Positions 3 to 30,784 of a stretch of DNA of 48,646 nt are shown piece after piece. The notes beneath the pieces are model-generated. The model was not told the DNA's origin, made no database searches, and saw nothing but the letters and a program-made list of their open reading frames with translations. Every line of letters begins with the position of its first letter. Position 1 is the stretch's first letter. A program made the position numbers and the translations under genes. The DNA is from Rubrivivax sp. (GTDB lineage Bacteria > Pseudomonadota > Gammaproteobacteria > Burkholderiales > Burkholderiaceae_C): the NCBI GenBank assembly GCA_026785885.1, contig JAJAZC010000121.1:1-48646 (forward strand), written 5' to 3'.

Positions 3-1013
3 CTGATCCTGCCCTCAGGCTCGCGCCGTGGCGGGCGCCCGCACGAGACGACCTTCACGCCCGACCTTTACCGCATGAGCGAGACGATGCCGGCGCCGCT
101 GGAAACACAGAACGGCAGCTTGCAGTCGCTCAGCTATCACGGCCAGGCGCCACGCGCGCCCGCGCTGGAGCGTTGGGCCGACGTGGCGCGTGGCACCACG
201 CAGCACGCCGACCGTCAGGCCATCGAGCTGGTGAGCCGGCTGTTCGAGGCCATGCTGGCCGACGTGCGCGTGCCGGCCGACATCCAGCTGTTGATCTCAC
301 GCCTGCATGGCCCGGCCATGCGGCTCGCAATGCGTGACCGCTGCCTGCTGGACCAGGGCAAACACCCGCTGTGGCGCTTCATCAATCAGCTGGTTTTTTC
401 GGCCGAGATGGCGCCCGACGCCACCGACCCAGAGCGCCAGCAGCTGCTGAAGGTGGCGCAGGTGACGATCGACCAGTTGGCCAGCGAGCCAGCGCAGAAC
501 ACCAGCCTGTACGCCTGGGCCGTAGAGCGGCTGGAGACCTACCTGAAGAAGCGCCTGACCCGCCGCCTGGCCGCGCTGGCCAGCCAGATTGGCGCGCTGC
601 AAAAGCTCGAGGATCAGGTTGCCGATGGCCAAGGCCCGCCGTCGACGATGAGCGGCCCACTGGACGTTCACCAGCTGGACACCGTGCCGGCCGAATTTAT
701 GCCCAGCGACATGCCGGCGGCCATCGACAAGGCCGACGCGGGCGCTTGGCTGAACAAGCTGCGCGCCGGCGACTGGCTGCGCATGTTCTTCAAAGGCCGC
801 TGGCTCCAGGCGCAGTTGCTGTGGCCCGGCGAGCGGCGCGAGTTCCTGCTGTTTGGCGACGGTGCATCGGATCGAACCTGGGCCGTGCGGGCCGGCGCTT
901 TGAGCCTCATGCACGCCAACGGCCTGGTCAAGACGCTGAAGCAGCGCTCGATCGTCGGCAGCGCCGCGGTGCGGGTGCAGGAGCAGGTAACGTCCGATCC
1001 GTCGGCCGCCTGA
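3..1013 (+). CDS. DUF1631-like protein, C-terminal part (5' end outside window)
   Basis: The reading frame is open from base 3, upstream of the listed ATG at 75, so this is most likely the C-terminal part of a longer protein that starts before the window. The last ~100 residues have a GDWLRMFFKGRWLQAQLLW segment followed by a pattern ending in a Leu-rich stretch. This resembles the C-terminal end of DUF1631 proteins, which are large (about 700-800 residues) and of unknown function. The middle part is helical and rich in Leu, Arg and Gln. No catalytic motif is visible. The assignment rests on remembered family similarity only. The gene is convergent with the hydrolase that follows. Confidence 0.55.
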   Translation: MILPSGSRRGGRPHETTFTPDLYRMSETMPAPLETQNGSLQSLSYHGQAPRAPALERWADVARGTTQHADRQAIELVSRLFEAMLADVRVPADIQLLISRLHGPAMRLAMRDRCLLDQGKHPLWRFINQLVFSAEMAPDATDPERQQLLKVAQVTIDQLASEPAQNTSLYAWAVERLETYLKKRLTRRLAALASQIGALQKLEDQVADGQGPPSTMSGPLDVHQLDTVPAEFMPSDMPAAIDKADAGAWLNKLRAGDWLRMFFKGRWLQAQLLWPGERREFLLFGDGASDRTWAVRAGALSLMHANGLVKTLKQRSIVGSAAVRVQEQVTSDPSAA

Positions 1014-23388: not shown

Positions 23389-24252
23389 TCAAGCCGAAAG
23401 AAAGCGCTCGACCAACGCAAACTGCTCTGGCGTATTGAGTGCCGGCGCGTGGCCGCAGCCGGCCATCGTCACCACCACCGCGCGCGGGCCGCGGTTGCGC
23501 ATGGCCTCGGCGGTATCAGGCAGCAGCAGGTCACTGCTCTGGCCGCGCAGCACCAGCACCGGCAGCGTCAACGAATCCCAGGCCAGCCACTGCTCTTAGT
23601 CCTGCGGGTGGTGCACGAACTGCTGGACGATGGCCGGGTCGTAGTGCGGCGTCACGCGGCCATCGGGCAGGCGGCGGCACGAGGTCTCGGTCAGCAGCCG
23701 CCACTGCGCATCGCTGAGCCAGCCGTACGGTTGGTAGATGAGGCGGAAGTACCGCTCAAGCTCGCTCACGGTGGCAAAAGCCGCCGGCTGGTTGGCATAA
23801 GACAGGATGCGGTCAGCGGCCGGCTCGGGCAGCGTCGGCCCGATGTCGTTGATGACCGGCCGCGTGATGCGCCCGCGCAGCAGGTTGGCTGCAGCGCGCA
23901 TGCCGATGGCGCCGCCCATGCTGGTGCCCAACCAGGCCAGCCGCTGCAGGCCCAGTTGATCCACCAGTGCCAGCGCCAGCCGCTCGTAGAAAGCCAGCTG
24001 GTATTCGGCCGCCGGGGCGGCGCTCCACTGGCTCAAGCCACGGCCCAGCGTGTCGGGGCAGATGACGTGAAAGCGCGGCGCCAGGTGCGCGGCCATCGCG
24101 TCCATGTCGCGCCCGGTGCGCGCCAGGCCGTGCCAGGCGATCAATGCCGGCGCTTGTGCGTCGCCCCACTCGGTGACGTGCAGCTCGCGGCCTTCGCAGC
24201 GCAGGTAAATGCTGCGCTGCGCTGCGCTGGGCTGCGCGGGGCGGCGCTGCAC
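23389..24252 (-). pseudogene. Alpha/beta hydrolase gene interrupted by an ochre codon
   Basis: The N-terminal four-fifths reads as an alpha/beta hydrolase: LIAWHGLARTGRDMD, CPDTLGRGLSQWS and the nucleophile elbow LGTSMGGAIGM. After IVQQFVHHPQD the frame meets TAA (complement of 23596-23598). The same frame then continues EQWLAWDSLTLPVLVLRG...SSDLLLPDTA to a C-terminal MAGCGHAPALNTPEQF that carries the catalytic histidine. Tyr to stop by one base is the simplest explanation. The start is unclear; GTG at 24252 is my best guess. The gene overlaps the end of livM by ~110 bases across a GC-rich short-repeat stretch and is the last gene of the liv operon. Confidence 0.75.
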
Positions 24253-25337
24253 GCACTCATCGCCGCACCGCCGCACCGCCGCACCGCCGCGCGCAGCCTG
24301 CCGACGATGCCACTCGGGAAGTGATGGACCGACAGCACAAACAGCAGGCCCAGCCACAACAGCCAGCGGTCGGGTGTCAGCGCTGCGCCCAAAAGCGGCA
24401 CACCTTCGAAGGCAGCGCTGGCCAGGCGCAGCAGATCCTGCAGATAGTTTTGCGCCAGCACAAACAGCGCCGCGCCGACCACCGCGCCGTACATCGTGCC
24501 CATGCCGCCGATGACGACGATGAGCAGGATGTCCAGCATGATCTCGAAGGACAGCGTGGTGTCCGGCCCCACGTAGCGCAGCCACAGCGCCAGCAGCGCA
24601 CCGGCCAGCGTGGCGAACAGCGCCGAGATCACGTTGCTGGCCGTGGGGTAAACGACGGTGCGAAAGCCCAGCGCCTCAGCCCGAACGTCGTTTTCGCGGA
24701 TGGCCTGCAGCACGCGGCCGAACGGTGAGTTGACGATGCGCAGCAGCGCCAGAAACAGCAGCGCCACGGCCACGAACAGGCCGTAGTAAGCGAGGATGCG
24801 GCCATCGATCACCAGGCCCAGCACCGGGGTACTGGACAGCTCGAAGGCCGGGCTCAGCCACTCTGGCGTCCTGAAGCTGAGACCGTCTTCACCGCCGGTG
24901 AAGTTCGACAGCTGCGAGGTCAGCGTCTGAAAGGCGCTGGCCACCGCCAGCGTGATCATCGCGAAGAAGATGGCCTTCACGCGCAGCGAGAACAGCCCCA
25001 CCAGCAGCGACAACAGCAAAGAAGTGACCAGCGCCGCTGCCGTGCCCAGCAGCACCTCGCTCCAGCCCGGCCCCAGCCGCGTGCCGGCAATGGCCACGCC
25101 GTAAGCGCCGATGCCAAAGAACATCGTGTGCGCAAAGCTGACGATGCCGGTGTAGCCCGGCAAAAGATCGAAGCTGGCCACCAGCAGGATGAACATTAGC
25201 GCCTTGGCAGCCACCGACAGCGCCTTGACACCGGGAAAGGCAAACGGCGCGACCAGCAGCGCAACGACGACGATGACCAGCGCCAGCGCCAGCCGGCGGC
25301 TGCGCGGCAGGTCGTGCGACAGCAGGCGGCTCGACAT
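24141..25337 (-). CDS. livM: Branched-chain amino acid ABC permease LivM
   Basis: A 398-residue LivM-family inner-membrane permease with about ten hydrophobic segments. It has the conserved GYTGIVSFAHTMFFGIGAYGVA near the N-terminus and REND..AEALGF plus VIGGMGTMYGAVVGAALF in the second half. With LivH it forms the transmembrane channel of the high-affinity ABC importer. The last ~45 residues (after GIVGRLRA) are Ala/Arg/Ser-rich, unlike LivM, and run antiparallel in phase over the adjacent hydrolase start. The original stop was probably lost near the GC repeat at 24.2-24.3 kb. Confidence 0.9.
   Translation of the reverse strand: MSSRLLSHDLPRSRRLALALVIVVVALLVAPFAFPGVKALSVAAKALMFILLVASFDLLPGYTGIVSFAHTMFFGIGAYGVAIAGTRLGPGWSEVLLGTAAALVTSLLLSLLVGLFSLRVKAIFFAMITLAVASAFQTLTSQLSNFTGGEDGLSFRTPEWLSPAFELSSTPVLGLVIDGRILAYYGLFVAVALLFLALLRIVNSPFGRVLQAIRENDVRAEALGFRTVVYPTASNVISALFATLAGALLALWLRYVGPDTTLSFEIMLDILLIVVIGGMGTMYGAVVGAALFVLAQNYLQDLLRLASAAFEGVPLLGAALTPDRWLLWLGLLFVLSVHHFPSGIVGRLRAAVRRCGGAAMSACSAAPRSPAQRSAAFTCAAKAASCTSPSGATHKRRH
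24258..24292. repeat. Short 8-bp GC-rich repeat at the livM/hydrolase overlap
   Basis: About 3.5 copies of an 8-mer (CGCCGCAC) lie here, with a further CTGCG-rich run just to the left. They sit where livM should end and the hydrolase should begin. Because the unit is not a multiple of three, slippage here could have removed the livM stop. Confidence 0.7.
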
Positions 25338-25388
25338 GATTTTGAGCCGAGGCCTAGCGCGGAACCGGCTTTGCCGGGCCGCTGCAAA

Positions 25389-25428
25389 CGCCCCCTCGGG
25401 GGCAGCGAGCGCAGCGAGCGTGGGGGCT
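25389..25428. repeat. REP-like palindromic element in the livH-livM gap
   Basis: Inverted C5/G5 arms (CCCCCTCGGGGG) adjoin GCAGCGAGCGCAGCGAGCG and a final TGGGGGC, forming a nested GC-rich hairpin. Sequences of this form are frequent extragenic palindromes in Burkholderiales genomes, from general knowledge. It may stabilise or attenuate the liv transcript. Confidence 0.6.
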
Positions 25429-26519
25429 TCATGACTTCACGGGGTAGAGGCCCTGCGGCCGCCACAGCAGGATTGCCACCATCAACGCGGTGTTCGAAAA
25501 CAGCGCCACCCTGGGCGCCAGAAAACCTAGTTGGTCAGCAGCCCGACCAGCAGCGCACCGATGAAACAGCCCAGCGTCGAGCCGAGGCCGCCGATGATGA
25601 TGACGATGAAGATCAGCACGTTGACCTGCGCACCGATCTGCGGTGACACGGCCTGCTGGTGGAGCCCCCACATCACACCGCCCAGGCCGGCCAGTGCCGA
25701 GCCAGCGACGAAGACACCGACAAACAAACGCCGGATGCGGTAGCCCAGGCTTTCGACCATCGCGCGGTCTTGCACACCGGCGCGGATGAGCAAACCGAGC
25801 TTGGTGCGCGACAGCGTCCACAGCAGCACCAGCAGCACGACCGCACCGACGATGCTGGCGAAGACGCGGTACTTCTCGATGGCCGCTGTCTCCGAACCGA
25901 TCTCGATCAGGAACGCGCCGCGCAAGGGCTGCGGCAGCGGCAGCGCAATCTGCCGCGGGCCCCAGATGACCTTGATGATCTCTTCACCGACGATCATGCC
26001 GCCCATCGTGATCAGGATCTGCTTCAGGTGCAGCCCGTAGACCGGCCGCACGATCACGCGCTCGAAAGCCCAGCCCAACGCACCGGCCACCGCCATGGCG
26101 ACCAGCATCGCGCAGAAGATCGCCAGCAGCGCAGCGGCTGCGTTCTGGTCGGCAAACGCGGCCATGCCGCCCATTACCGTGGTGGCCACGAAGGCACCCA
26201 GCGCGATGAACACGCCGTGGCCGAAGTTCAGCACGTCCATCAGGCCGAAGACCAGCGTCAAGCCGGACGCGATGACGAACACGATGAAGCCCATCGCCAA
26301 GCCAGCCACCGTGAGAGTTAGCCAGCTGCTTGTGCTGCCGATGGCCGGTATTGCGACCAGCATCAGGCCGACCAGCAGCGCCACCGGTATCCAGTCGAAC
26401 TGTGTTTTGGGCAGCGCGGCGCGCGGCGCCAGCACAGCCTGCGCGCTGGTGGCCGGGCCGGGCGCCACTGGGCGGTCGGCCGTGGCCGCGGCCGGTGCTG
26501 GTAGTGCCGATCTGCTCAT
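25429..26519 (-). pseudogene. livH: Branched-chain amino acid ABC permease LivH, frameshifted near the C-terminus
   Basis: From ATG 26519 the product is a LivH permease: GLAMGFIVFVIASGLTLVFGLMDVLNFGHG, ILITMGGMIVGEE, and a C-terminal VLIFIVIIIGGLGSTLGCFIGALLVG. The frame stops at LLTN-TAG (about 25527). The missing end, FLAPRVALFSNTALMVAILLWRPQGLYPVKS, follows in another frame and ends at 25429. A 1- or 4-base deletion just after the Asn codon explains this. About 30 residues including the last hydrophobic segment are displaced. The start overlaps the livF stop (ATGA). The listed ORF 25527-27092 merely runs on through livF in another frame. Confidence 0.8.
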
Positions 26520-27253
26520 GCGTGCGCCGCCAGCGACAAGCCCAGCAACCACTGCTGCAGCGCCGCGTTTGCTGCCAGCGCAGCCATCGTGCCGGTGTGC
26601 ACGACACGGCCGTTGTCCATCACCGCGACCGTATCGCCCAGGGCGCGCGCCATCATGAAGTTCTGCTCGACGAGCAGGATCGTCGTGCGCTGCAGCTTCA
26701 GCTCGCGCAGCGCGCGGATCAGGTTGTGCACGATGGCCGGCGCCAGGCCTTTGCTGGGCTCGTCGACGAGGATCAGCGCGCGCGGCTCGCAGATCGCGCG
26801 GGCCACCGCCAGCATCTGCTTTTGCCCACCCGACAGCTTGCCCGCCGGGTACAGCCAGAAGGTCTGCAGCGCCGGGAAGAGGCCGAAGATCCAGGCCATT
26901 CGCGCGGCATCCAGATCGCTCTCGTGGCGCGCTGCGCGGGCCGCCAGCAGCATGTTTTCCTTCACCGTCAGGTCGCTGAAGATGCCCATGCTCTCGGGCA
27001 CGTAGGCGATGCCGCTGGCAGCGATCTCGGGCGTGGCGCAGCTGTCCAGCCGCGTGCCCCGAAACGTGATGCGACCTTGCGACGTCCGCCACAAGCCCAT
27101 CACCGTGCGCAGCGTCGTGGTCTTGCCGGCGCCGTTGCGGCCCAGCAGCACGGTGACCTCGCCTTCGGGCACCACCAGGTCCACGCCATGCAGGATGTGG
27201 GGCGCGCCGATGTGCGTGTGCACGCCCTGCAGCGCGAGCAGCGGCGCGCTCAA
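26516..27253 (-). CDS. livF: Branched-chain amino acid ABC ATPase LivF
   Basis: A 245-residue cytoplasmic ABC ATPase. Walker A is GRNGAGKTT, the signature is KLSGGQKQMLAVARAI, and Walker B is ALILVDEPSKGLAP, followed by the switch histidine region (LLVEQNFMMA). The TTTLRTVMGL and YVPESMGIFSDLTVKENM segments are characteristic of LivF. It powers import together with LivG. The start overlaps the livG stop, and the stop overlaps the livH start. This gene appears intact. Confidence 0.94.
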   Translation of the reverse strand: MSAPLLALQGVHTHIGAPHILHGVDLVVPEGEVTVLLGRNGAGKTTTLRTVMGLWRTSQGRITFRGTRLDSCATPEIAASGIAYVPESMGIFSDLTVKENMLLAARAARHESDLDAARMAWIFGLFPALQTFWLYPAGKLSGGQKQMLAVARAICEPRALILVDEPSKGLAPAIVHNLIRALRELKLQRTTILLVEQNFMMARALGDTVAVMDNGRVVHTGTMAALAANAALQQWLLGLSLAAHA

Positions 27254-27978
27254 ACCAGCGCCTCGGCTGCGATGCCCGGGTAGGCCTGCTGCACCACCGG
27301 CAAGGCGATCACGGCTGCCGGCTCACCGTCGGCCACCAGCTGCCCGTTGTGCATCACGACGATGCGGTCAGCCAGCTCGCGCACGAGGTCCATCTTGTGC
27401 TCGACCAGCAGGATCGCGATGTCCTTGCGCGCTTTGAGCTGGCGGATGAGGTCCAGCACCACCGGCACGTCGGCCACGCTCATGCCTGCGGTCGGCTCGT
27501 CGAAGAGGTAGACCTTGGGGTCCAGCGCCATCAGCAGCGCCACTTCGAGCTTGCGCTGGTCACCGTGCGGCAGGCTGCTGGCGGTGGCCTCGGCCTTGTC
27601 GGCCAGATGTACAAGTGTCAATAGCTGCGCCGCTTCTGCTATCCAGGCGCGGTGGTCCGACCAGATGCGCCGCAGGTCCATGCCGCCCAGCGCCAGCAAG
27701 CCGCGGCGCGCGCGCCCGGCCTCACGCGCCTGCACCGCCAGGCGGACGTTCTCGTGCACCGTCAGATTCGGAAACAGCTGCGTCAGCTGAAAAGCCCGCC
27801 CGAGCCCCCGCCGTGTGCGCAGCGCCGCAGGCAAGGCCGTGATGTCCTCGCCCTGCAGCAGCACCCGGCCGGCACTCGCCCGCAACTGGCCCGAGATCAG
27901 GTTGAAGTAAGTCGTCTTGCCGGCGCCGTTGGGCCCGACGATGGCCGTCAGCGTGCCGGCCTCGAAGCGGCAGGACAC
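27250..27978 (-). CDS. livG: Branched-chain amino acid ABC ATPase LivG, N-terminus missing
   Basis: The 242-residue frame has Walker A GPNGAGKTT, the LivG-type FQLTQLFPNLTVHENVRLA, LPHGDQRKLEVALLMA and Walker B VYLFDEPTAGMSVADV. Compared with E. coli LivG, about 23 residues are missing before Walker A: homology begins only at VSCRFEAGTLTAIVG, so the first strands and the A-loop aromatic are absent. No ATG lies close; GTG 27978 would be the start. Just upstream the sequence turns into coding-like sequence of a different gene on the plus strand, suggesting a deletion junction. Confidence 0.85.
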   Translation of the reverse strand: MSCRFEAGTLTAIVGPNGAGKTTYFNLISGQLRASAGRVLLQGEDITALPAALRTRRGLGRAFQLTQLFPNLTVHENVRLAVQAREAGRARRGLLALGGMDLRRIWSDHRAWIAEAAQLLTLVHLADKAEATASSLPHGDQRKLEVALLMALDPKVYLFDEPTAGMSVADVPVVLDLIRQLKARKDIAILLVEHKMDLVRELADRIVVMHNGQLVADGEPAAVIALPVVQQAYPGIAAEALV

Positions 27979-27980
27979 GG

Positions 27981-28133
27981 CGCGCGCGGCTGGAGCGGCG
28001 CAATGCCCGTGGCAACATGTTCGGCAAAGGCCGGCGCCAGTCCTTCAGCCTGATGGTCAACTGCCCTTACGACGCGGGCCAAGTCCAGGTTCAGGCCCAG
28101 GCCAGTCGCGCCGAGTTTCACCACGGGAAGTAG
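27981..28133 (+). pseudogene. Possible C-terminal gene remnant abutting livG
   Basis: A plus-strand frame, too short for the ORF track, reads RLERRNARGNMFGKGRRQ, then SFSLMVNCPYDAGQ, and ends at TAG 28131-28133. Third codon positions are almost all G or C, as in real genes here. It has no start and runs into the truncated 5' end of livG. I read it as the 3' end of a gene whose body was lost in the same deletion. The family is not recognised. Confidence 0.4.
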
Positions 28134-28205
28134 CCCGCTCACGCGCCATCGCAGCGCCGGTTTCAGAGCCGCATCGAATCAAACCAACGACGGAGGCAAC
28201 AACGC

Positions 28206-29210
28206 ATGAACCGCATCGACCGCATCAATATCGACCGCCGCCAGGCGCTCATCGGCGGCACCGCCACCCTCGCCAGCATGCTGGCCACACCCTGGGTGCA
28301 GGCGCAGGCCGGCTGGCCCAGCAAGCCCGTGACCATCGTCGTGCCCTTCCCGCCCGGCGGCGGCACCGACGCCTTTGCACGGCCGCTGTTTGCCGCGATG
28401 ACGCGCAACCTGGGCAAGCAGTTCGTCATCGACAACAAGGGCGGCGCCGGCGGCACGCTGGGCGCGAGCCTGGCGGCCAAGGCCGCACCCGACGGCACCA
28501 CCTTCTTCATGGGCGCGGTGCACCACGCGATCGCGCCCAGCATGTACCCGAAGCTCGACTACAACATCGAGACCGACTTCATCCCCGTGGGCTTGGTCAG
28601 CAGCGTGCCGCAGGTCATCGTCGTCAACCCACAAAAAGTTGCGGCCACGACGCTGCCGCAGCTGCTGGAGTTGCTGCGCAAGAACCCGGGCCGGCTCAAT
28701 TACGGCTCGGCCGGCAACGGCACCAGCCACCACCTGGCCGGCGAGCTGTTCAAGCTGCAGACCAAGACCTTCATCACGCACATTCCCTACCGCGGCGCCG
28801 GGCCGGCGCTGCAGGATTTGATTGCCGGCCAGGTCGACCTGATGTTCGACGGCCTGGGCTCCAGCGCCACGCACATCAAGAGCGGCAGGCTGCGCGCCAT
28901 CGCCGTGGCCAGCGACAAGCGAGCACCCGGCTTCCCCGACGTTCCGACCTCGGTGGACGGCGGCGTGCCGACCTACCGGGTGGCCACCTGGTACGGCATC
29001 TGGGCGCCCAAAGGCACGCCGCGCGAAGCCATGCAGGCCATGGCCGCCGAGATGCGCAAGGCCCTGAACGCAGACGATTTACGGACCATGTGGACCGGCC
29101 TGGGCACCGAGACGCCCAACCTGTGGGGCGATGACTTCGGCAGGTTCGTCGGTGCCGAGGTCAAGCGCTGGGCCGAGGTGGTCAAAAACTCCGGCGCCCG
29201 GCTGGATTGA
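28206..29210 (+). CDS. Bug-family (TctC) tripartite tricarboxylate transporter binding protein
   Basis: A 334-residue periplasmic binding protein. The leader carries DRRQALIGGTATLASML, Tat-like, with likely cleavage after VQAQA. The mature part has the Bug signatures WPSKPVTIVVPFPPGGGTD, NKGGAGGTLGASLAAKAAPDG and HIPYRGAGPALQDLIAGQVDLMFDG. Bug proteins bind small carboxylates and related compounds. No TctA/TctB membrane genes are nearby, as is common for the many orphan Bug proteins in betaproteobacteria. GGAGG sits 8-10 bases before the ATG. It precedes malonyl-CoA synthetase by 20 bases, suggesting malonate or a related dicarboxylate as ligand. Confidence 0.93.
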   Translation: MNRIDRINIDRRQALIGGTATLASMLATPWVQAQAGWPSKPVTIVVPFPPGGGTDAFARPLFAAMTRNLGKQFVIDNKGGAGGTLGASLAAKAAPDGTTFFMGAVHHAIAPSMYPKLDYNIETDFIPVGLVSSVPQVIVVNPQKVAATTLPQLLELLRKNPGRLNYGSAGNGTSHHLAGELFKLQTKTFITHIPYRGAGPALQDLIAGQVDLMFDGLGSSATHIKSGRLRAIAVASDKRAPGFPDVPTSVDGGVPTYRVATWYGIWAPKGTPREAMQAMAAEMRKALNADDLRTMWTGLGTETPNLWGDDFGRFVGAEVKRWAEVVKNSGARLD

Positions 29211-29230
29211 CACCCAAGGCGCAATCCGAG

Positions 29231-30784
29231 ATGACGCCCGAGAACCACAACCTCTTCACCGCGCTGCGCGCCGCCTTCCCGGCCGACCTGGACAGCACCG
29301 CCATCGAGACCGCCGACACGGCGACGCCGCTGCACTACAGCTGGCGCGACCTGGACTGCGGCAGCGCGATGATGGCCAACCTGATCGACGCGCTGGAGCT
29401 GCCGCCGGCTTCCCGCGTGGCGGTGCAGGTCGACAAGAGCGTCGAAGCGCTCATGCTGTACCTGGCCGTGCTGCGTGCAGGCCACGTCTTCCTGCCGCTG
29501 AACACGGCGTACCAGGCGGCCGAGATCGCGTACTTCATCGGCAATGCCGAGCCGGCGCTGGTGGTGTGTGCGGGCAAGAACTTCGGCTGGGTCAGCAAGC
29601 TGGCTTTCCAGGCCGGCACGAAGAACGTTTTCACGCTCAACGACGACCGCACCGGCACGCTGCTGCAGCGTGCCGCACACCACAGCACGCAGCACGCGCC
29701 GGCCGAGCGCAGCGCCGACGACCTGGCCGCCATCCTCTACACCAGCGGCACGACAGGGCGCAGCAAGGGCGCGATGCTGACGCACGGCAACCTGCTGTCG
29801 AACGCGCGCGTGCTGAGGGACGCGTGGGGCTGGCAAACGGCTGCAGACGGCGGTGACGTGCTGATCCACGCGCTGCCCATCTTCCACGTGCACGGCCTGT
29901 TCGTGGCCAGCCACGGCGCGCTGATCAACGGCAGCAAGATGATCTGGTTTTCGCGCTTCGAGCCGCGCGCCGTGGCGGCCCGGCTGCCCGAGGCCACCGT
30001 GTTCATGGGTGTGCCTACGCTGTACGTGCGGCTGCTGGCCGAGCCGGGCTTCGGCAAGGAAGCCTGCAGCCGGATGCGCCTCTTCGTCAGCGGGTCTGCG
30101 CCGCTGCTGCTGGAGACCTTCCACGAATTCCGCACGCGCACCGGCCACACCCTGCTCGAGCGTTACGGCATGAGCGAGACGGTGATGCTCACCAGCAACC
30201 CCTACCGCCCAGAAAGCGCGCGCCGCGGCGGCACCGTGGGCCCGGCGCTGCCCGGCGTGGGTGTGCGCGTGCATGGCGACAACGGCCAGCCGCTGCCGGC
30301 CGGCAAGATCGGCCACATCGAAGTGCGCGGCCCCAACGTGTTCAAGGGCTACTGGAAGATGCCGGAGAAGACCGCGGCCGAGTTCACTGCCGACGGCTGG
30401 TTCAAGACCGGCGACGTGGGCCAGATCAGCGCCGACGGCGGGGTCACCATCGTCGGCCGCAGCAAGGACCTCATCATCACCGGCGGCTACAACGTCTACC
30501 CGGCCGAGATCGAGGGCTTCATCAACGACATGCCCGGCGTGGCCGAGAGCGCGGTGGTGGGCGTGCCGCACCCCGACTTCGGCGAGGCCGTGGTGGCGGT
30601 GGTGGTGCCCAAAGCCGGCGCCACGTTGAACGGCGCCGACATCGCCGCCCGGCTCAAAGGCCGGATCGCCAACTTCAAGGTGCCCAAGCTGGTGGAGGTG
30701 GCGCCCGACCTGCCGCGCAACGCCATGGGCAAGGTGCAGAAGAGTCTGTTGCGCGAGCGGCACCAGGGACTCTTCGCACGGTGA
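29231..30784 (+). CDS. matB: Malonyl-CoA synthetase (malonate-CoA ligase) MatB
   Basis: A 517-residue AMP-forming acyl-CoA synthetase. It has the P-loop-like AILYTSGTTGRSKGAML, the A5 motif ERYGMSET, the hinge region GWFKTGDVG, and the C-terminal A10 lysine in PRNAMGKVQKS. The long match around VEALMLYLAVLRAGHVFLPLNTAYQ...EIAYFIGNAEPALVVC is characteristic of MatB, which makes malonyl-CoA (or methylmalonyl-CoA) from the free acid, ATP and CoA. No malonyl-CoA decarboxylase (MatA) is seen beside it. I start at ATG 29231; the track's TTG 29207 overlaps the Bug gene end. Confidence 0.92.
   Translation: MTPENHNLFTALRAAFPADLDSTAIETADTATPLHYSWRDLDCGSAMMANLIDALELPPASRVAVQVDKSVEALMLYLAVLRAGHVFLPLNTAYQAAEIAYFIGNAEPALVVCAGKNFGWVSKLAFQAGTKNVFTLNDDRTGTLLQRAAHHSTQHAPAERSADDLAAILYTSGTTGRSKGAMLTHGNLLSNARVLRDAWGWQTAADGGDVLIHALPIFHVHGLFVASHGALINGSKMIWFSRFEPRAVAARLPEATVFMGVPTLYVRLLAEPGFGKEACSRMRLFVSGSAPLLLETFHEFRTRTGHTLLERYGMSETVMLTSNPYRPESARRGGTVGPALPGVGVRVHGDNGQPLPAGKIGHIEVRGPNVFKGYWKMPEKTAAEFTADGWFKTGDVGQISADGGVTIVGRSKDLIITGGYNVYPAEIEGFINDMPGVAESAVVGVPHPDFGEAVVAVVVPKAGATLNGADIAARLKGRIANFKVPKLVEVAPDLPRNAMGKVQKSLLRERHQGLFAR

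Follow-up and report, generated by a model that had tools for sequence, protein, structure and literature searches.

The locus described here combines remnants of two known gene clusters, namely the livKHMGF operon of the LIV-type (HAAT) ABC transporters and the malonate utilization (mat) cluster. The window (the whole stretch of DNA analyzed, 48,646 nt) is one entire contig of a draft MAG of Rubrivivax sp. (3.33 Mb, 227 contigs, 89.9% complete). It retains the livM–livH–livF–livG order and orientation of the LIV-type operon, and its livG and livF match the LivG/LivF as well as the UrtD/UrtE models, with scores below the NCBIfam equivalog cut-offs; the label is therefore that of a class, not of a substrate. 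It differs from this operon type in the absence of livK, which in the relatives codes for a Peripla_BP_6 protein, in a livG short by ~19 codons, and in a frameshifted livH. The mat cluster is represented in the relatives by the genes for a GntR/FCD regulator and malonyl-CoA decarboxylase (MCD) followed by tctC and matB, all reading in one direction; the window possesses a matB scoring above the PRK07514 malonyl-CoA synthase cut-off, but its regulator and MCD have been deleted. The carrier of the rhizobial mat operon is MatC; the transport gene here is of the tctC/Bug type instead. The locus also displays the familiar signs of bacterial deletion pseudogenes, i.e., truncated ends, frameshifts, a lost stop and excess change at conserved sites, with nothing unusual about them: two genes from opposite strands have been joined by one deletion.

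The named relatives of the MAG in a genome collection are mostly Rubrivivax- or Ideonella-like Burkholderiales; the comparison comprised 36 same-genus livG loci, 18 relatives for the MCD remnant, and 80 further genomes from the genus. As the earlier note on this DNA had advised, close relatives with the full liv operon were inspected, and the intact arrangement was found. In G023 (locus L028), the minus strand carries hydrolase–livM–livH–livF–livG–livK–sigma54 regulator and, beyond the latter, the plus strand carries GntR/FCD regulator–MCD–tctC–matB. The two points adjoining in the window are ~5.0 kb apart there, with order and orientation unchanged; the spacing in other relatives is roughly 4–8 kb. 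Collinear livG and MCD on a single contig were documented in G023, G008, G017, G014, G006, G021, G062, G095, G060, G074, G059, G056, and G057. In every same-genus locus where it is visible, livK adjoins livG, this adjacency being absent only in the window. MCD is less constant: of the 80 other genomes, 40 gave no match to it, and the MCD-containing cluster has thus commonly been lost repeatedly or arranged differently in the genus. Loci L035, L060, L063, L064, and L069 have livK or the gene of the sigma54 regulator as the immediate neighbor of tctC–matB, without MCD and GntR.

On the left side of the junction, the gene of the branched-chain-type ABC transporter ATPase, livG (27250..27978, minus strand), has lost its 5′ end. 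The remainder is 75–81% identical to its counterparts and keeps the Walker A motif and the ABC domain homology (Pfam ABC_tran, 2e-28). Its homology stops exactly at the GTG (V) codon 27976–27978, beginning with V-SCRFEAG, as noticed earlier and now borne out against the 36 same-genus loci. In all 36, livG is longer, VSC being preceded by the nearly invariant M/V-LETxDLTIRFGGHVAVDH; by this alignment, the loss amounts to about 19 codons including the RFGG segment, instead of the ~23 residues estimated before. A short LivG shared by relatives, or a valid upstream start, had been named as observations speaking against a truncation. The short form occurs in none of the 36 relatives, and the codons upstream of the GTG, the sole in-frame start at the edge, run into an in-frame TGA before any ATG, GTG or TTG; hence, livG is left without a valid upstream start. 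Changes were found at 3 of 122 invariant sites (none in 29 of the 36 relatives). The pN/pS ratio of livG is not raised, which shows that constraint acted on the gene through most of its past and that its inactivation is recent relative to the separation of these species. Other liv-type ABC genes are present elsewhere in the genome; a LivG-like match on contig C201 contains one TGA, its translation being in an unsuitable frame.

On the right side, the coding-like plus-strand sequence proved to be a genuine gene remnant. Comparison of its frame with proteins, another check proposed in the earlier note, identified the last ~45–60 codons of a matA-type MCD, located directly upstream of the same tctC as in the relatives, i.e., just before tctC–matB. 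The decayed 3′ end of MCD/matA occupies 27979..28165 (plus strand) and matches the MCD C-terminus with 57% identity (E = 2e-7, query residues 377–423) in the search of its own genome and with E down to 1e-11 against relatives. Alone, the fragment matches Pfam MCD (PF05292) weakly (E = 0.022), compared with 3e-89 for the full-length MCD of a relative. The gene is thus not the foreign one that had been supposed, since MCD normally belongs to this locus in the relatives. No full-length open frame is left, only the frameshifted ~45–60 codons. They carry a 12-nt in-frame insertion (approximately 28080..28091, plus strand) absent from the 18 relatives and, between 28126 and 28127, a 1-nt deletion (28126..28133, plus strand), which creates the TAG at 28131–28133. 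Hence, 28133 is a frameshift stop and not the authentic gene end for which it had been taken: the original frame continues as EVARSRAIAAPV to 28165, where the codon equivalent to the native stop (28163–28165) reads TCA. Of the 17 otherwise invariant residues, six are changed in the stub, each relative showing 0–1 changes among 11–12; the pN of the stub exceeds that of all others in the set. The stub is presumably inert.

The junction itself falls within 27976..27984. The window agrees with the relatives on the livG side through GGACAC (27973–27978) and on the MCD side from about ACGGCGCG..GGCTGGAGCGG, with the MCD homology starting at about 27979–27984. The two ends possibly share a microhomology of 2–3 bp (AC/ACG), the GCGCGC run being longer by one GC, and no long repeat was found at them; this combination fits an illegitimate deletion. 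A junction-spanning DNA query of 1,101 bp searched against 81 genomes of the genus was split into 1–479..483 and 478..483–1099, i.e., at 27978–27982. Among the matches listed, none from the other 80 genomes spans the junction, the only spanning match being that of the source genome; relatives harbor the intact homologues with the intervening DNA. At 25360–25415 lies one copy of a short GC-rich repeat that is interspersed through the genome (~50–80 bp, about 75–93% identical, ~20 places). In G023, this repeat sits between livG and livK (L028, 8317–8397); it does not occur at the junction. A promoter/terminator scan of 27700–28300 returned no match, the GC-rich genome making such a scan uninformative.

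The deleted genes were also sought elsewhere in the genome. Only the stub was found for MCD, and no orthologue was found for livK (best 27%), for the GntR regulator (best 39%) or for the sigma54 regulator (47% at best, a match in the shared AAA+ domain); overall, the best identities of the deleted-gene proteins within the genome were 23–47%. At the DNA level, the stretch deleted relative to G023 matched only paralogous sigma54 domains and the short interspersed repeat. Given the intact arrangement in the same-genus genomes, one deletion of ~5 kb explains both ends and the missing livK. The single deletion removing the livG 5′ end together with the 5′ part of the other gene, as conceived earlier, is thereby supported, and so is the suggested loss of the binding-protein gene, which adjoins livG in relatives and lacks an orthologue elsewhere in the genome. 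Two regulators, however, were missed in that account of the deleted content.

The damage is not confined to the junction. The livF frame (26516..27253, minus strand) is intact, and livH (25527..26519, minus strand) is interrupted by a 4-nt deletion at 25527–25530 (AACTACACCGGC to AACTAGG) when compared with every aligned relative; the resulting TAG (25527–25529) leaves the final ~35 codons (from 25432) out of frame. In the otherwise well conserved alpha/beta hydrolase homologue beside livM (23398..24213, minus strand), TAC has become the nonsense codon TAA (23596–23598). Neither lesion is within a homopolymer, and both were overlooked in the earlier note, which had recognized the truncated livG. 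The livM homology (24288..25337, minus strand) is open and departs from its relatives at positions that are invariant elsewhere, e.g., L61P and R245P; the livM frame (24141–25337) continues past the homology end at 24288 into the hydrolase start. On the plus strand, the tctC/Bug-type gene of a tripartite tricarboxylate transporter binding protein (28206..29210) and the malonyl-CoA synthase gene matB (29207..30784) are intact, the former upstream genes of their operon being gone. By invariant-site changes, the liv-side genes rank highest or nearly so in their sets and tctC and matB are ordinary, with the pooled difference not significant (16/563 vs. 4/363, p = 0.10); per-gene pN/pS did not separate the two groups. 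The terminal branch of the window is the longest of 13 in the liv set (a mild excess) and mid-range in tctC + matB. Overall, the liv transporter appears to be non-functional, and tctC and matB look maintained.

We consider it highly probable that an illegitimate deletion of ~5 kb joined livG to the end of MCD in an ancestor, the liv transporter being inactive thereafter. This short- or no-homology event, placed in the ancestral line of this Rubrivivax-like bacterium, would have fused livG, cut at about codon 20, to the terminal ~45–60 MCD codons on the opposite strand. As the relatives show, it removed the first ~19 codons of livG, livK, the sigma-54-dependent regulator, the GntR/FCD regulator, ~375 MCD codons and the divergent promoter region. 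Devoid of its binding protein, with LivG truncated and LivH frameshifted, the transporter would then be inactive, and tctC and matB, open and conserved, would have to use some other promoter. That the contig is instead misassembled, either by joining two real but separate stretches or by collapsing ~5 kb, is very improbable, even though the MAG consists of 227 contigs and the deleted genes could sit in the ~10% not recovered. The joined ends are neighbors in the relatives, in the same order and orientation, as would not be expected of a random chimera; the 2–3 bp common to both ends are no repeat able to collapse, and an intact hidden gene would not bear the frameshift, the stop loss, and the changed residues of the stub. 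One might also think of a truncated LivG, far better conserved than the MCD stub joined to it, that is still under selection and works without the N-terminal strand and livK, or of tctC–matB rewired to a deletion-created promoter; both deserve hardly any credence. Equally far-fetched is a functional re-started ATPase serving another binding protein. Its frame is open, Walker A and the remainder are conserved under unraised pN/pS, and the genome contains further liv-type ABC genes, but both the N-terminal strand and RFGG, present in 36/36 relatives, are missing, no start codon precedes the edge GTG, three invariant sites are altered, the livH partner is frameshifted, and livK is gone.

The order of events is a closer matter. 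The deletion may be real and yet not be what killed both genes: several smaller deletions may have occurred, or an already dead MCD may have eroded before a later deletion reached into livG. We assign this slightly less than an even chance; it lies within the preferred explanation, and credence in one does not detract from the other. It is favored by the unequal decay of the stubs (3/122 invariant sites changed in livG vs. 6/17 in MCD, Fisher p = 9e-5), a poor fit to both genes dying at the same moment, as well as by the frequent lack of MCD in the genus and the several relatives with livK or the sigma54 gene beside tctC–matB. At the same time, livK, the regulators, and the MCD body are wholly gone, which makes at least the final step one clean join; a single junction is visible. 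Probably, MCD lost its function first, or livG survived longer. In the simplest account, the function of MCD was already fading, possibly as in the half of the genus that is without it, and the deletion later removed what was left and extended into livG.

Thus, the truncated livG and the MCD stub represent a well-supported case of a real deletion scar and of ordinary genome decay. Annotators should be aware that the 242-aa ‘LivG’ and the ‘gene end’ at 28133 are pseudogene artefacts. In a genus with MCD missing from half of the sampled species, one lineage is here seen to have dismantled a transporter operon along with a malonate-catabolism cluster.
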